A stretch of 38,066 nt of DNA from Candidatus Bathyarchaeota archaeon (lineage in GTDB: Archaea; Thermoproteota; Bathyarchaeia; 40CM-2-53-6). The notes beneath the pieces are model-generated. The model did no database searches and was not told the DNA's origin. It saw only the letters and a list, made by a program, of their open reading frames with translations. The stretch lies in the NCBI GenBank assembly GCA_005884195.1, contig VBBP01000020.1, positions 1-38,066 of the forward strand, written 5' to 3'. The translations under genes were made by a program, and so were the position numbers. Of this stretch, positions 11,777 to 20,139 are shown piece by piece (position 1 is the first letter of the stretch; the number at the start of each line of letters is the position of its first letter).

Positions 11777-14700
11777 GTGAGAGTCCTAGTCCTAGCTGCA
11801 ATGATTCTATGTTCCCTAGCGGTAGCTACGAGTATGCCAAGTGCTCATGCCGCAAACCTAGTCCACACTTTCTACTATGGGTCTACGGCTCAGTCCGGTT
11901 GCCTAATCAAATGTGAACAGCTAGCCACTGTCACCGGCACTGCTGATACAACCACGAGCGTCCACCTTGGTAATAGTGTTACTTGCTGCTTTGAGGTTCA
12001 ACCTGACGTAAGTTCTTCTGGCACGACCGCCACACCTTCCACTGCCACGCCGACAGGTCAGGCGTGGGTCTACTCCATTGATTTGGGAGGAATAACGATT
12101 CAAAGCGGGACTTGGCGGTTTGACACAACGATTACAGCATCAAAAACTGCTACGGCCACTATGCGTTTTCTTGTCTGGTCATGCCTTACCGCGTCCGAGG
12201 GAACGTGCACAAACCTCTTTGACTTTACCGGGACCGCGAACATTGAAGCTACGCAAACAGCGACCCTGAATACCGATACCTCTGGGACCGTCGGTCCCTT
12301 CTCAAATGTTCACTATCTAACAATAGAGGTCTGGATCAGTCCTACCGCGGCGGGACCACCATCAACGACCGATACTATGACAACTGTTTCCGGTGCGAGC
12401 GATGTGATTACCCCTGGCTGGGGTTACACTCAGAATCCCACCGGGACGATGGGGAATCTAGCGTCAAGTCTAACAGCGCGCAGCTCGCTGTTTAGAGGCT
12501 TGGGCGGATCACTCTCTATGGTCACGTCCTTCGCTGAACGTACTTCGATCCTTAGATCGATAGGCGGCATGCTAGGTCTAGCCTCAAGTCTCACTGAGAA
12601 GAATTCCGTCTTCAGAACTCTAGCCGATTCGATCACGTTAACCATGAAGATGATGTTCACATCCACTCAGACATCCAAGACTACATCTGTTTCTTGTACG
12701 CTACAAGCTGGAGCTGCTACTGCCTGTACTTTGAACCCTACGAGCTCGATTACTCTGGCATCGACTTTCGCGGAGAGGAACTCGAGATTCAGAGCGTTCA
12801 CTGGTTCGTTTATGCTCAGCTCGGGTCAAGCTGAAAAGAACTCCATACTCAGAACCTTCACTAGCTCGCTGTCGCTCGTCTCCGGTTTTGCAAGAATGGC
12901 TTCGCTCTCTAGAAGCGTCACAACCTCTCTGACATTGTCCTCGACCTATGCTGAACATACTTCCCTTCTCAGGTCACTATCCGGTTCGTTCAGTCTTTCG
13001 AGTTCCGTGTTGAAGGCTCGCACCATAACTCTAACCGGTTCCTTGGGCTCCGTCTCAGGCCTCGCGGAAAAGAATTCCCTGTTCAGGTCTCTGTCTGGTT
13101 CATTGTCCCTAGTGTCTAGTTTCGTTGAGAAGTCATCGCTCTACAGAACTCTGTCAGGTTCCTTGAGTTCCACCTCAAGCTTCGTGGAACATACTTCCCT
13201 GTTCAGGTCCCTATCCTCTTCTCTGACGCTAGCTGGTTCTGGGACCAAGGCGCTTGCCAAGGCCTTGAACGGTTCGATGGGTTCAACTTCAGGTCTCGTG
13301 GAACGCACTTCACTCTTCAGGTCCCTAACCGGCTCCTTGACACTAGTCGGCTCTGAGACCAAGGGTCTTGCCAAGACTTTGAGTGCGTCTATCTCCTCAA
13401 TGTCAACCTTCACAGAGCACGCCTCATTGTTCCGCTTCTTTTCCGGTTCGTTGACTCTTTCGAGCTCCGTTCTGAAAGCCCGTACCGTAACCCTAAGCGA
13501 TTCACTCGGTCTGACCTCAAGCATTACCGAGAAGAATTCACTATTCCGGTCTCTCTCCGGTTCCCTAGGAGTCGCTGCTTCTCAGATCAAGGGTCTCGCC
13601 AAGTCTCTGATCGGTTCCATTGGTGAGTCCTCGAATATTGGAGAACATAGTTCGCTATTCCGGTTGCTGACCGGTGCGCTTAGTTCGGCCTCAAGTTTTG
13701 CAGACAAATCCTCGTTTTTCAGATCCTTGTCCGGTTCGTTAGGATTGGTGATTTCTCTGTCTAGTGGTCACACTGTGGGCTTGACTGCTTCGCTTGGTTC
13801 GGCCTCAGGCTTTGCGGAGAGGACTTCGCTGTTTAGATCCTTGTCCGGTTCGTTGTCTCTGGTGACTTCTGAGACTAAGAGTTTCATCAGGTCCCTGGCC
13901 GGTTCGCTTGGTTCAACCTCGAGTCTTGCGGACCGGAACTCGCTTTTCAGATCCCTGACTGGTTCAATTTCTCTGGCTGGTTCTGAGACTAAAGGTCTTG
14001 CTCGGTCTCTGAGCGCTTCGCTTGGGTCAGTTTCAAGTCTTGTTAAGAGGAGTTCGCTCTCCCGGTCTCTGGGTGCTTCTCTGGGTTTCGCTAGTTCTAT
14101 GTCTAGGGGTCGCATTGTGGGCTTGACTGCTTCGCTTGGTTCGGCCTCAGGCTTTGCGGAGAGGACTTCGCTGTTTAGATCCTTGTCCGATTCTCTAGGT
14201 ATGGTGAGCTCCCTGTTTAGAGGTCGCACCGTAAACCTGAGTACATCCCTGGGTTCTTCCTCGAGTCTTGCTGAGAGATCCTCGTGGTATAGGTCGGTAT
14301 CTGGTTCACTAACTGTGGCCTCAATTATCGCCGAGAAGAGTTCGCTGTTTAGATCCCTGAGTAGTTCGCTGACTTCAGTTTCTGGGTTTGTCGAAAGATC
14401 TTCGCTCTTCAGGTCTCTTAGCGATTCCCTGTCTCCGGCCTCAAGTATTGCTGAGAAGAGTTCACTGTCTAGATTTCTGACTGGCTCTCTCGGTCCAGCC
14501 TCTAGTTTTGCTGAGAAGAGTTCACTGTCTAGATTTCTGACTGGCTCTCTGGGTTCAATCTCAGGTTTTGTTGAGAAGAGTTCGCTCTTCAGATCTCTAA
14601 GCGGTTCATGGACAACGACTTCAGGTAATGCTGAGAAGACTTCCTTCCTCAGGTCCCTAAGTGGTTCGCTAGCTACAGTCTCTAGTTTTGCTGAGAAGGG

Positions 14701-17023
14701 TTCCTTGTTTAGGTCGTTGAGTGGGTCGCTTGGTTCGGGCTCGAGTCTTGCGGACCGGAACTCGTTTTTCAGGTCTCTGATTGGTTCAATGTCTCTCTTC
14801 GCTTCTCAAACTAAAGGGCTCGCTAAGAGTCTGAGCGTTTCTCTAGGTCCCTCATCTGGTCTCGTTGAGAAGACTTCGCTCTTCCGGTCTATGGGTGCCT
14901 CGTTGAATCTTGCCGGTTCTGAGACTAAGGGTTTTCTCAGGTCTCTCACGGGTTCGCTTGGTTCGGCATCAAGTCTTGCAGAGAAATCTTCGTTTTTCAG
15001 ATCCTTGTCCGATTCTCTAGGTATGGTGAGCTCCCTGTTTAGAGGTCGCACCGTAAACCTGAGTGCCTCGTTGGGTTCGAACTCGGTTCTTGCTGAGAGG
15101 TCTTCATTCCTCAGGTCGCTGAGCGACTCGTTGAGTCTTGTGAGTTCTTTCTTTAGGGGTCGTACTGCAAACTTGAGTGCTTCGGTAGGCTCATCCACAG
15201 TTCTTGCTGAGAAGTCTTCGTTATTCAGGTCGCTGAGTACTTCGTTCTCTCTTGTCTCAGGCCTTGCTGAGAAGTCTTCGTTGTTTAGGTCTCTAATTAG
15301 TTCATGGACCTCGGCCTCAAGTTTTGCTGGGAAGAATTCATTGTTCAGATCACTGTCTAGCTCGCTGGGTATTGTCGGTTCTGAGGCTAAGGGTCTTGCT
15401 AGGGGTTTGAGTGCTTCCCTAGGTTTAACTTCGAGTTTTGTGGAGCACGTTTCGCTGTTTAGGTCGTTCACTGGTTTCATAAGTCTTGGAAGTTCTTTCC
15501 TCAAAGGTCGTGCTGTGAACTTGAGTGTTTCATTGGGTTCAGCCTCGGGCTCGGTGGAACATACTTCACTCTTCAGATCTTTGTCTGATTCGCTAGGTTT
15601 CGTAGCCTCCTTCTTTAGAGGCCGCACCGTCAACTTAAGCGCCTCAGTAGGCTCAGCCTCAAGTTTTGGAGAACACACATCGATTTTTAGATCCTTATCA
15701 GATTCAGTAGGTCTCACGGCCTCCTCATTCAGAGGTCGGAGCCTGACGCTGAGCGCGTCCGTAAGTTCGGGTTCGAGTCTTGCAGAACACACATCACTGT
15801 TCAGGTCTTTGACTAGTGCGCTAGGCCTGGCAGGTTCTCAAACCAAGGGTCTTGCGAGAGGGCTAGTTGCATCACTAGGTGAAACGTCCACCTTCTTGGA
15901 GCATATTTCTCTCTTCAGGTCGATGACCGGTTCAATTGGATATGTGACCTCTCAGTCGGAAGGCCGGGCGGTTATCTTAAGCGCCACGATAGGCTCAACT
16001 TCGACGTTCTCTGAACATACTTCACTCATCAGGTCCTTGTCCGACTCTCTGGGTTTCGCGGCATCCTACTTCAGGGGCCGCACCGTCAACTTGAGCACTT
16101 CGATTGGTTCAGCTTCGGGTATCACAGAGCGGACCTCGCTCTTCAGAGCTCTCTCAGGGTCCCTGACGCTAGCAGGTTCGCAAGCAAAGGGTCTCGCGAA
16201 GGCCTTAAGCGCCTCACTAGGTTCAACATCGGCATTCCTGGAGCATATCTCACTTTTCAGGTCGCTCGCAGACTCACTTGGACTTTCAAGCTCCCAGCAA
16301 AGAGGTCGAAGCCTAACGTTGAGTGCTTCGTTGGGAATGGCCTCGAGTTTCATTGACAAGGCATCTCTCTTCAGATCCCTCACTAACTCAATTGGTGTCG
16401 CTATTTCTCAGAGCAAGGGTTTCAGTGAACCCCTCAGCGCCTCGCTAGGTGGCGCTTCCACATTCTCTGAGCACACTTCGCTGTTCAGATCCTTGTCGGA
16501 CTCGATAGGTCTAAGCGCTTCCTACTTCAGAGGTCGCGCAATTTACCTAGATGCCTCACTAGGTTCAGCATCGAGCTTCTTTGAACACTTGTCACTTGTC
16601 AGATCTCTCTCCGGATCGTTATCTTCAGGTTCGAATGGTGGAAAGAGTTCTTCGTTCTTCAGATCTCTGAGTGGTTCATGGAGCATGAAAGCAGTTTACA
16701 CGCGGGGAACAAAGTTTGTGCCTGTAGGTCTGGGTACAAACTTTGGCAGTGGAGAAGTTCTCATGGGCCGCTACGGTTGTATTAATTGCAGCAGTAATAC
16801 AGGGGACTTCGCCTTCCTCGTGATTGCTATCGGTTTCATAGTTTTCGGTGTTTACGCTGCGAGGCAACGACGGCAATCTTCAGGTCCTCCAACAGAGCCT
16901 GGGGAGGAGAAGGTTTCTGTTGATGAAGAAGGCTGGGAGACAAAAGGACCTGGCAACGCGGAAGGGAGAGCTGTCAGTCCCCCCAAAGATAGAGAAGGTT
17001 GGGAGACGAAGCCTGAAGGCTAG
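11777..17023 (+). CDS. Giant serine-rich tandem-repeat surface protein with C-terminal membrane anchor
   Basis: A 1748-residue protein starting at GTG 11777. It has a signal peptide (residues 1-25, ending SAHA), then a module of about 195 residues homologous to part of the divergent neighbour. From about residue 225 to 1635 it is an array of roughly 70 units of 18-21 residues. One unit type reads like SSLFRSLSGSLSLVSSFAEK; a second alternates with it (KGLAKSLSASLGSxSS or RGRTVNLSASLGSxSS). A short non-repeat insert with two cysteines interrupts near residues 290-325. After the array come a CxxC motif (about nt 16785), one membrane helix (about residues 1677-1696) and a cytoplasmic tail with EEGWETK and REGWETK. 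It is probably a long, extended cell-surface stalk or adhesin, similar in style to Ser/Leu-repeat archaeal and viral surface proteins, but the family is not recognised. The function is inferred only from architecture. Confidence 0.85.
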   Translation: MRVLVLAAMILCSLAVATSMPSAHAANLVHTFYYGSTAQSGCLIKCEQLATVTGTADTTTSVHLGNSVTCCFEVQPDVSSSGTTATPSTATPTGQAWVYSIDLGGITIQSGTWRFDTTITASKTATATMRFLVWSCLTASEGTCTNLFDFTGTANIEATQTATLNTDTSGTVGPFSNVHYLTIEVWISPTAAGPPSTTDTMTTVSGASDVITPGWGYTQNPTGTMGNLASSLTARSSLFRGLGGSLSMVTSFAERTSILRSIGGMLGLASSLTEKNSVFRTLADSITLTMKMMFTSTQTSKTTSVSCTLQAGAATACTLNPTSSITLASTFAERNSRFRAFTGSFMLSSGQAEKNSILRTFTSSLSLVSGFARMASLSRSVTTSLTLSSTYAEHTSLLRSLSGSFSLSSSVLKARTITLTGSLGSVSGLAEKNSLFRSLSGSLSLVSSFVEKSSLYRTLSGSLSSTSSFVEHTSLFRSLSSSLTLAGSGTKALAKALNGSMGSTSGLVERTSLFRSLTGSLTLVGSETKGLAKTLSASISSMSTFTEHASLFRFFSGSLTLSSSVLKARTVTLSDSLGLTSSITEKNSLFRSLSGSLGVAASQIKGLAKSLIGSIGESSNIGEHSSLFRLLTGALSSASSFADKSSFFRSLSGSLGLVISLSSGHTVGLTASLGSASGFAERTSLFRSLSGSLSLVTSETKSFIRSLAGSLGSTSSLADRNSLFRSLTGSISLAGSETKGLARSLSASLGSVSSLVKRSSLSRSLGASLGFASSMSRGRIVGLTASLGSASGFAERTSLFRSLSDSLGMVSSLFRGRTVNLSTSLGSSSSLAERSSWYRSVSGSLTVASIIAEKSSLFRSLSSSLTSVSGFVERSSLFRSLSDSLSPASSIAEKSSLSRFLTGSLGPASSFAEKSSLSRFLTGSLGSISGFVEKSSLFRSLSGSWTTTSGNAEKTSFLRSLSGSLATVSSFAEKGSLFRSLSGSLGSGSSLADRNSFFRSLIGSMSLFASQTKGLAKSLSVSLGPSSGLVEKTSLFRSMGASLNLAGSETKGFLRSLTGSLGSASSLAEKSSFFRSLSDSLGMVSSLFRGRTVNLSASLGSNSVLAERSSFLRSLSDSLSLVSSFFRGRTANLSASVGSSTVLAEKSSLFRSLSTSFSLVSGLAEKSSLFRSLISSWTSASSFAGKNSLFRSLSSSLGIVGSEAKGLARGLSASLGLTSSFVEHVSLFRSFTGFISLGSSFLKGRAVNLSVSLGSASGSVEHTSLFRSLSDSLGFVASFFRGRTVNLSASVGSASSFGEHTSIFRSLSDSVGLTASSFRGRSLTLSASVSSGSSLAEHTSLFRSLTSALGLAGSQTKGLARGLVASLGETSTFLEHISLFRSMTGSIGYVTSQSEGRAVILSATIGSTSTFSEHTSLIRSLSDSLGFAASYFRGRTVNLSTSIGSASGITERTSLFRALSGSLTLAGSQAKGLAKALSASLGSTSAFLEHISLFRSLADSLGLSSSQQRGRSLTLSASLGMASSFIDKASLFRSLTNSIGVAISQSKGFSEPLSASLGGASTFSEHTSLFRSLSDSIGLSASYFRGRAIYLDASLGSASSFFEHLSLVRSLSGSLSSGSNGGKSSSFFRSLSGSWSMKAVYTRGTKFVPVGLGTNFGSGEVLMGRYGCINCSSNTGDFAFLVIAIGFIVFGVYAARQRRQSSGPPTEPGEEKVSVDEEGWETKGPGNAEGRAVSPPKDREGWETKPEG
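12457..16680 (+). repeat. Coding tandem repeat array, about 57-60 bp units
   Basis: The DNA of the giant gene repeats with a 54-63 bp period over about 4.2 kb. Most units are diverged, but some are identical over long stretches. The 74-bp segment 13774-13847 recurs exactly at 14116-14189. The 66-bp segment 14177-14242 recurs at 14999-15064. A 30-bp run at 14461 recurs 60 bp later. This shows recent duplication or gene conversion inside the array. Unit number may vary between strains, and assembly here could be collapsed. Confidence 0.85.
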
Positions 17024-17454: not shown

Positions 17455-18066
17455 TCATCGCGGAGGATAGTAGAACTGTATCCCTGCGAGAACGTACTGT
17501 ACAGCAATAGCTGCGATAAAAAGAGACATTATTCTCGCTATTACCGCAGCCCCAGTCTTTCCTAGCAGCCGATAGATTCTATCGGTTTGTCTTAGGACAA
17601 CCCAGCTCACGAACATGACGATTACAATGGCACTAAGGGCAACCATGATTCCGGACGATTGAATCGAGATCAGGGTCAGGGTTATCGCTCCGGGACCAAC
17701 AAGTAGCGGGAATGCTATTGGGAAAACGGCTGTCTCCTCAGCAGAAACAAGAGTTAGCTTGTCCATGCGTTCACCGCGGAAAATGATCTCAATCGATAGC
17801 AAGAGTAGAACCAGTCCTCCTGCGATCTGGAAGCTCTCTAGAGATATTCCGAATAGTAGCAAGACTTCTTGACCGATCAGGGCAAAAGCAGCTAAGAGTA
17901 TGGCCCCGACAACCGCAGCCGTTCTGAACACTTTCCGCTTCTCATCAAGGTTCATCGTCTTGGTCAGCCCTGCAAATATGGGAACAGGACCCAGCGGGTC
18001 CACGATTACAAATAGGGCAACTGTTGCTTTCAGAAGGTCAAGAAGAAACATGTCTAATGAGGTCAC
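17455..18066 (-). CDS. MarC family integral membrane protein
   Basis: About 203 residues with six hydrophobic segments, matching the MarC/UPF0056 family. Visible family features are LFVIVDPLGPVPIFAGLT near the N-terminus and the later FPIAFPLLVGPGAITLTL. The biochemical role of the family is unsettled. The preferred start is GTG 18064-18066 (or ATG 18049-18051), preceded by a GGATGAT-like site. The frame continues upstream to 18168, but that part reads through the tRNA gene (giving SWVQIPPGPP) and is not protein-coding. It lies directly downstream of, and on the same strand as, tRNA-Val, and converges with mscL. Confidence 0.85.
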   Translation of the reverse strand: MTSLDMFLLDLLKATVALFVIVDPLGPVPIFAGLTKTMNLDEKRKVFRTAAVVGAILLAAFALIGQEVLLLFGISLESFQIAGGLVLLLLSIEIIFRGERMDKLTLVSAEETAVFPIAFPLLVGPGAITLTLISIQSSGIMVALSAIVIVMFVSWVVLRQTDRIYRLLGKTGAAVIARIMSLFIAAIAVQYVLAGIQFYYPPR

Positions 18067-18102
18067 TCTATCATCCTTTCCTCGCTGGTTCGGAGCTTTT
18101 TG

Positions 18103-18200
18103 TGGTGGGCCGGGAGGGATTTGAACCCACGACCTTCGCCGTGTGAGGGCGACGTCCGTTCTGCGCAATCATCTTGCTTACCAGGCTGGACTACCGGCCC
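18103..18200 (-). tRNA. tRNA-Val (CAC), with apparent intron in the D-loop
   Basis: The acceptor stem GGGCCGG/CCGGCCC, discriminator A and encoded CCA (18103-18105) are clear. The anticodon stem TCGCC/GGCGA encloses loop CTCACAC, giving anticodon CAC for valine. The T-loop is TTCAAAT; its stem has one T-T mismatch. The D-stem is GTCC/GGAC, but the enclosed loop is 30 nt instead of about 8-11. Removing about 20 nt (GCAAGATGATTGCGCAGAAC) leaves a canonical D-arm, GTCC-AGCCTGGTAA-GGAC. That insert contains the hairpin GCAA-GATGA-TTGC. Introns at non-canonical tRNA positions are known in archaea. I did not resolve the bulge-helix-bulge, so the exact borders are approximate. Confidence 0.88.
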
Positions 18201-18266
18201 AACGAGTGGAGAATCGGAAGGAGACTATATTTCATCTTTCGAATCGGGGAAGTTCTACGGTTGTTT

Positions 18267-18732: not shown

Positions 18733-20139
18733 CTAGCTTATCGTCTGGACCTTGAGAATCTCCGTCTTGCCGGAGGGGCCTTTAGGATCTCCAGCAATTA
18801 TGACGATTCTATCCCCCTTTTTCGCCAGTTTCAATCGAACCACTGATCTCTCGGCCTCGTGGAAAATCTCCTCGCTAGTAGTGAACTCTCTAGTGAGTAG
18901 AGTTTGAACTCTCCAGGAGAGGAGCAGTTGCCGTTGCACTTCTGGATGAGATGTTAGGGCAACGATCGGGAGGGGAGGCCGATACTTGGACACAAGACGG
19001 GCGGTCCTACCTGTTCGGGTAGGTGCGACGATCGCCGAAGCTGAGACTTGCAGGGCAGTCTCGCAAGCCCCGAGTGCTAACGAGTCGGCTTGACTGTGTT
19101 CGTACCATGCTCGACGTTGAGGCGAGATCTCTTTTGGAAGGAATCGCTCGGTCTCTTCAGCTACGCGTCCTAGAATCCGAACCGCTTCCACGGGATATTT
19201 GCCGATCGCTGTTTCCTCGGAGAGCATTACGGCGTCGGTGCCGTCGATGATAGCGTTCGCCACATCCGTAACTTCGGCCCTAGTCGGCGTCGGAGAGGAA
19301 ACCATCGATTCCAGCATCTGGGTTGCGGTGATCACAGGTTTTCCGAACCTGTTGCTCTCGTGAATGATTCTCTTCTGTATTATCGGGACAAGTTCGAGTT
19401 TGAGCTCTACCCCGAGGTCGCCTCGTGCGACCATGACCCCGTCCGCTTCCTGGACGATCTCTTCGAGATTATCGACTGCTTCTCGCTTCTCTATCTTCGC
19501 AACAACAAATATCTCATGGCCGTTGGCCCTGGCAACCTTTCTCGCCGTCTTTATGTCGTCGACTTTCTGGACAAAGGACGCGGCGATTATGTCGACCTTG
19601 TTTTCCACGCCGAACTTGATGTGTTCCTTATCATCACTAGTTATCGCTGGGACCCGGATTCTAAGTCTTGGGAGATTGACTCCCTTTCCCGACGTCAGAT
19701 CGCCACCGTTGATCACGCGTCCTTCGACCTCGTCTCTCTTGGTTCGTAGGACCTCGATCCTGATGGTCCCATCTGCGAGGAATATCGTATCGCCCTTCTT
19801 GACTGCTTTGGGAAGGTCCGGATATGCGATTGGAATCTTGAATTTGGAGTTGGTTGGTTTTGTTGTTAGGCTGACCTTGTCGAGCCTTTGAAGGTGAAGA
19901 GGTTCGCTTGCGAGTTTGCCTACTCGCAGCTTTGGTCCAGGCAGGTCTTGCAGAATGGCTACAGGGCGGTGGAGACGTTCGCTGACCTGTCGAATCGTTT
20001 TGATGACGCGAACGTGTTGATCGTAGGTTCCATGGGAAAAGTTGATGCGCGCAACATCCATTCCCGATTGGATCAGTTGAGTTAACACTCTGGAGGAATC
20101 TGACGCAGGGCCAATGGTGCAGACAATCTTTGTAGCTAT
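18733..20139 (-). CDS. pyk: Pyruvate kinase, start codon uncertain
   Basis: Catalyses phosphoenolpyruvate plus ADP to pyruvate plus ATP. The fold is complete from its first strand: ATKIVCTIGPAS, then SGMDVARINFSHG, LPGPKLRVG, the catalytic-lysine region VAKIEKREAV, MVARGDLGVEL, and ITATQMLESM with EVTDVANAI. The C-terminal domain is short (about 468 residues total), compatible with archaeal enzymes. The conserved strand ATKIVCTIGP lies upstream of the first canonical start (GTG at 20086-20088), so that start would remove the first beta strand. Upstream of it, in the open frame, there is only ATA at 20137-20139, exactly where Met is expected, or CTG at 20158-20160, before a TAG. I use ATA. A base error turning ATG to ATA would explain it equally well. 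Confidence 0.92.
   Translation of the reverse strand: MATKIVCTIGPASDSSRVLTQLIQSGMDVARINFSHGTYDQHVRVIKTIRQVSERLHRPVAILQDLPGPKLRVGKLASEPLHLQRLDKVSLTTKPTNSKFKIPIAYPDLPKAVKKGDTIFLADGTIRIEVLRTKRDEVEGRVINGGDLTSGKGVNLPRLRIRVPAITSDDKEHIKFGVENKVDIIAASFVQKVDDIKTARKVARANGHEIFVVAKIEKREAVDNLEEIVQEADGVMVARGDLGVELKLELVPIIQKRIIHESNRFGKPVITATQMLESMVSSPTPTRAEVTDVANAIIDGTDAVMLSEETAIGKYPVEAVRILGRVAEETERFLPKEISPQRRAWYEHSQADSLALGACETALQVSASAIVAPTRTGRTARLVSKYRPPLPIVALTSHPEVQRQLLLSWRVQTLLTREFTTSEEIFHEAERSVVRLKLAKKGDRIVIIAGDPKGPSGKTEILKVQTIS

Follow-up and report, generated by a model that had tools for sequence, protein, structure and literature searches.

A probable D-loop intron in the tRNA-Val(CAC) gene of a bathyarchaeon with an apparently intron-rich set of tRNA genes

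The tRNA-Val(CAC) gene and its 30-nt D-loop

The tRNA-Val gene located near the middle of the 38,066-nt stretch of DNA analyzed here (hereinafter the window) has an oversized D-loop, which raises the question whether the surplus bases are removed as an intron, kept in the mature tRNA, or signify a decayed gene or an artefact. We conclude that the gene very probably contains one non-canonical archaeal intron that interrupts the D-loop at 20/21 (or 21/22), is associated with a relaxed bulge-helix-bulge (BHB) motif and is spliced out. An intron of this kind had been proposed in the initial annotation, and the proposal is supported by a fast-changing insert, near-invariant exons, intronless outgroup genes, the relaxed BHB, a parallel in tRNA-Val(TAC) and the type of splicing endonuclease encoded.

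The locus is a genuine tRNA-Val(CAC) gene: the tRNA model of Rfam hits 18200-18106 on the minus strand of the window (RF00005; 57.3 bits, E 5.9e-10, cut-off 29), and the sequence forms a cloverleaf in which the acceptor, D, anticodon and T arms are all present, the T-stem with one mismatch. The precursor body (18106..18200, minus; positions 1-73 plus the intron), which has orthologues in a set of 15 genomes that counts the source itself, consists of a 5' exon (18179..18200, minus), which supplies the 5' strands of the acceptor and the D-stem and the D-loop segment AGCCTGGTA, and a 3' exon (18106..18157, minus), which supplies the 3' strand of the D-stem, the anticodon arm, the variable loop, the T-arm and the 3' strand of the acceptor. 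The anticodon CAC (18143..18145, minus) lies, together with U33, in the 7-nt loop CTCACAC closed by TCGCC/GGCGA. By direct reading, a 3' CCA is encoded at 18103..18105 (minus), as it is downstream of nearly all orthologues, and the gene end originally placed at 18103 includes it; the gene call, strand and coordinates were thus right. ARAGORN reported no tRNA in the window, a miss that we attribute to the oversized D-loop.

Upstream of the gene, 26-40 bases before position 1, lies the promoter-like BRE/TATA-like element GAAAGATGAAATATA (18226..18240, minus), which recurs exactly or nearly so in most members of the genus within flanking DNA that differs. A second Val(CAC) gene was not found in the source genome (95% complete). 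The gene thus appears to be functional and single-copy.

The D-loop, AGCCTGGTAAGCAAGATGATTGCGCAGAAC, is exactly 30 nt long and is enclosed by a GTCC/GGAC D-stem, in agreement with the initial annotation, as is the outcome of deleting about 20 nt: excision of 20-21 nt leaves a D-loop of 9-10 nt and a normal Val(CAC) cloverleaf, and 21 nt are taken out of the D-loop in the best cloverleaf parse that allows a single intron. The candidate intron is AGCAAGATGATTGCGCAGAAC (21 nt, 18158..18178, minus), or 20 nt (18159-18178) if the 3' cut is AA|C.

With respect to the neighboring genes, the listed open reading frame at 17455-18168 (minus) has its start inside the tRNA; this frame encodes a MarC-like transporter (TIGR00427), the start codon of which is probably the ATG at 18051 (minus), about 50 bases downstream of the tRNA. 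On the plus strand, positions 11777-17023 encode a 1748-aa protein that is built of many short SLFRSLSGSL-like repeats, has a hydrophobic stretch at the C-terminus and may be a surface protein. For the pyruvate kinase encoded at 18733-20088 (minus), the genome collection yielded mostly bacterial relatives, none of them close; the nearest are bacterial, at up to 49% identity, and this gene was possibly acquired by transfer.

Conservation of the exons and structure of the splice site

A search of 60 related genomes identified full-length Val(CAC) genes of 93 to 95 nt in 14 genomes other than the source, 12 from the same genus and 2 from other genera of the same family. The resulting set spans 15 genomes and three genera of one family, and 14 distinct sequences were aligned. 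Across these, the exons differ at three mature positions only: 13 (C, with T in two), 57 (A or G) and 64 (T or A). The insert varies from 19 to 21 nt and most of its bases are variable, the constant parts being the GC/GC base of a hairpin, CAG or CGG facing the exon CUG, and GAAC ahead of GGAC. The base that follows GGTA is A, G, C or T among the orthologues, as expected for the first base of an intron, which makes GGTA the most likely end of the 5' exon.

Outside the family, four Val(CAC) genes, one of them from the same order, are intronless and have ordinary D-loops (L112, L118, L121 and L126, the last being the one from the same order); hence the simplest scenario is a gain of the insert on the stem lineage of the source's family. 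No full-length Val(CAC) match was detected in the other six genomes of the family, all drafts of 67-92% completeness (G001, G003, G004, G009, G016 and G019), nor was an intronless copy seen in them. A Nitrososphaerales genome (L077) likewise yielded no Val(CAC) orthologue but only partial matches to the T-arms of other tRNAs.

This distribution bears on two of the alternatives. The source assembly is a draft of 72 contigs, which might invite the suspicion of an assembly or sequencing artefact; the same sequence, however, is present without change in another genome (G013) and at 98% identity in two more, and the probability of an artefact is negligible. The T-stem mismatch and the oversized D-loop could be taken for signs of a pseudogene, or a decayed copy with a random insertion. 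The T-T mismatch noticed at the outset is indeed real: it joins T50 and T64 (bases 18129 and 18115), which bound a T-arm segment (18115..18129, minus) outside the intron. It is kept, however, in 12 of the 14 distinct orthologues, the other two having a normal U-A pair, and so represents a lineage trait that is evidently tolerated in the T-stem. Together with the retention of the gene and its exons in 15 genomes of three genera, the conservation of the promoter-like element in most of them and the lack of any other Val(CAC) gene in the 95% complete source genome, this makes decay highly improbable.

The structure around the insert is that of a relaxed BHB. The exon CUG (18182-18184) pairs with the intron CAG (18161-18163) in a central helix (18161..18184, minus) that adjoins a mismatch of G19 with G or A; this helix is seen in the minimum free energy fold of the precursor and is paired in all 14 distinct orthologues, with U-A replaced by U-G in four. 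The 3' bulge AAC (18158-18160, minus) is invariant in the 14 sequences, and the 5' junction UA|N is kept. The strict motif, with two 3-nt bulges and a 4-bp helix, is absent: three pairs form in the helix, beside a mismatch of G with G or A, and the AAC bulge is faced by an additional AGC, so that a 3 by 3 loop adjoins the D-stem. Thus, of the BHB that the initial annotation proposed to look for, the relaxed form is kept across the relatives; the relaxed BHB is an established category among the tRNA introns of archaea (PMC6379350). The intron hairpin described in the initial annotation, GCAA (18174-18177) with TTGC (18165-18168) within 18165..18177 (minus), is present in the source and withstands comparison in part: its GC/GC base is invariant in the 14 distinct orthologues, whereas the third pair (AU, GC, GU or UG) is formed in 9 of 14 and unpaired in 5, and the fourth (AU, CG, UA or UG) is formed in 7 and unpaired in 7.

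The statistical signal of these structures is weak. The observed percentage of paired positions was reached by 64 of 500 shuffles and the covariation score by 47 of 500, so that covariation is not significant by itself, and the isolated D-arm folds just 1.25 sd below shuffled sequences. The case for an intron therefore draws mainly on the conservation contrast, the intronless outgroup genes and the Val(TAC) parallel described below.

Conservation also bears on the remaining alternative, namely that the insert is retained and forms a lengthened D-arm hairpin in the mature tRNA. The unspliced precursor does fold as a cloverleaf with a long D-arm. In tRNAs, G18 and G19 contact the T-loop, and in the unspliced fold G18 pairs with the insert, which would block that contact; moreover, the sequence and length of the insert vary freely, intronless Val(CAC) genes occur outside the family, and a splicing endonuclease and a ligase are encoded. 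We therefore regard retention as very unlikely and excision as the preferred reading.

The Val(TAC) parallel and the splicing enzymes

The tRNA-Val(TAC) gene of the source genome (G000:C50, L190) carries an intron at the same D-loop site as Val(CAC). It differs in having a strict BHB with a 4-bp CUGG/CCGG helix and 3-nt bulges, UUA and AUA, in its unambiguous cut, which restores A21, and in a second insert in the variable region. Inspection by eye of this gene and its relatives (L181-L186) showed CUGG or CCGG paired with CCGG, a 5' bulge of UUA or UUG and a 3' bulge of AUA, ACA, UGA or CGA, the last base always being A. Cuts between the second and third bases of each bulge yield AGCCUGGUU-A-GAAC, with the A that is usual at tRNA position 21. 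Applied to Val(CAC), the same rule (UA|N, AA|C) gives C21, whereas AAC|G gives A21 but is one base off the rule. The length of the Val(CAC) intron is accordingly uncertain by one base, 20 or 21 nt, depending on the 3' cut.

An Ile gene was compared among the relatives as a further guide to the 3' cut. The last base before its D-stem is T in one and G in the other of two near-identical genes; this comparison is informative for Ile and does not transfer to Val(CAC). Separately, an Ile(GAT) gene from another family of the same order (L178, G027) contains an insert that occupies the same D-loop site and ends in CAAT before GAGC, together with another in the anticodon loop; D-loop introns are thus not confined to the source's family.

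The initial annotation also suggested checking for a matching endonuclease type, and the genome encodes one. Two separate PF01974 genes, for proteins of 189 and 176 aa, correspond to a catalytic and a structural subunit. The 189-aa alpha subunit matches the catalytic subunit of Aeropyrum pernix (3p1z) with 148 bits over 181 residues and keeps the catalytic Tyr of DFAVY, His of IDHAPF (Ala in 3ajv) and Lys of VRK; furthermore, a Lys aligned with residue 44 of 3p1z corresponds to the lysine of the Crenarchaea-specific loop (A. pernix K44), which is reported to confer broad specificity on the splicing endonuclease (PMC6379350). The 176-aa protein is a diverged second subunit that matches the family but does not have the Tyr/His pattern of the first. 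The two genes fit a predicted broad-specificity, two-subunit endonuclease of the (alpha-beta)2 type, and the two-subunit type has been assigned to Nanoarchaeota, Thaumarchaeota and Crenarchaeota (PMC4090602). The RtcB ligase is encoded as well (E 9e-172).

From these elements, we infer the following route of cutting and ligation. In the precursor, the D-loop exon CUG would pair with the intron CAG, and the helix would be capped by the GC.../...GC hairpin of the intron, so that each junction would lie in a bulge (UA|N for the 5' junction, AAC for the 3' junction), as in a relaxed BHB. The two-subunit endonuclease would cut both bulges and release the intron of 20-21 nt, the exons would be joined by the ligase, presumably RtcB, and the restored D-loop of 9-10 nt could then make the normal contact with the T-loop.

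Interrupted tRNA genes across the genome

In the initial annotation, the position of the intron was described as unusual. This is an overstatement: introns at 20/21, 22/23, 25/26 and other sites are listed for archaeal tRNAs (PMC4090602), and the non-canonical share of archaeal tRNA introns is about 30%, with 1533 canonical and 673 non-canonical introns counted in 217 archaeal genomes (PMC8450103). The listed 20/21 introns (PMC4090602) share with that of Val(CAC) their site and small size as well as junctions of the BHB type, and come from hosts with a two-subunit endonuclease; the relaxed BHB of Val(CAC), with its three pairs plus mismatch and 3 by 3 loop adjoining the D-stem, sets it apart from that set. 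The 107 non-canonical introns of Thaumarchaeota (tRNAscan-SE 2.0, PMC8450103) are of the same type, so that the Val(CAC) intron belongs to a known class. They probably also come from the same broad archaeal group as the source, whose two-subunit endonuclease, intron type and gene content would point to Thaumarchaeota (Nitrososphaeria). This gene and its lineage are not described in the papers cited here on archaeal tRNA introns, and a literature search combining tRNA introns with Nitrososphaeria returned nothing. Taken alone, Val(CAC) adds one more non-canonical intron to the archaeal inventory.

The tRNA intron richness of the genome is of more interest. Searches for tRNAs and T-arms recovered 28 tRNA genes, consisting of 27 parsed genes and Val(TAC), and approximately 26 of the 28 are interrupted, often two or three times (G000, L002-L015, L134-L161 and L190). 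The exceptions are Arg(GCG) and Leu(CAG), both uninterrupted and of normal length; the other recovered genes measure 89 to 203 nt, some of them spanning 140-203 nt. A rough parse counted 45 introns in 27 genes, or about 42 once false class II calls are dropped; the count is approximate and covers genes with a standard T-arm, the custom cloverleaf parser having called a false intron in a class II gene (L004) and misparsed some long genes. This corresponds to about 1.5 introns per recovered gene, compared with means per tRNA gene of 0.21 in archaea and 0.84 in Thermoproteales (PMC8450103).

Two further genes extend the range of sites. Val(GAC) (L007, 1911-2009 of G000:C46) has an insert of about 24 nt adjoining the D-stem, around positions 13-15. 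Each of the three Val genes recovered thus carries a D-arm interruption, and two distinct sites are involved. Another gene (L138, G000:C22) is interrupted by about 31 nt before the D-stem (between positions 9 and 10) and has further inserts.

The Rfam model matched 15 tRNAs in the whole source genome, and ARAGORN reported 2 genes in 15 tRNA loci. Across genomes, Rfam matches number 15-19 in members of the family vs. 27-32 in four genomes of the same order or class, as expected if more tRNA genes are interrupted in the family. These figures suggest that the intron-rich tRNA set is largely missed by general tRNA finders.

The closest analogy is offered by Thermoproteales, such as Pyrobaculum calidifontis with 71 introns in 46 tRNA genes (PMC8450103), in which, as in the source genome, most tRNA genes are interrupted, with several introns per gene and many non-canonical sites. 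The source appears to belong to a different lineage, and the estimate given here is approximate and drawn from a portion of its tRNA genes. Within the Val(CAC) genes themselves, the 14 distinct orthologues display a small intron that turned over while the exons remained static, which makes them useful for defining what a relaxed splice site must keep. More broadly, it seems rather likely that the source's family joins Thermoproteales as another lineage with interruptions in nearly all tRNA genes, and that in this family the D-loop is a recurrent site of interruption and many introns were gained after the split from related families.
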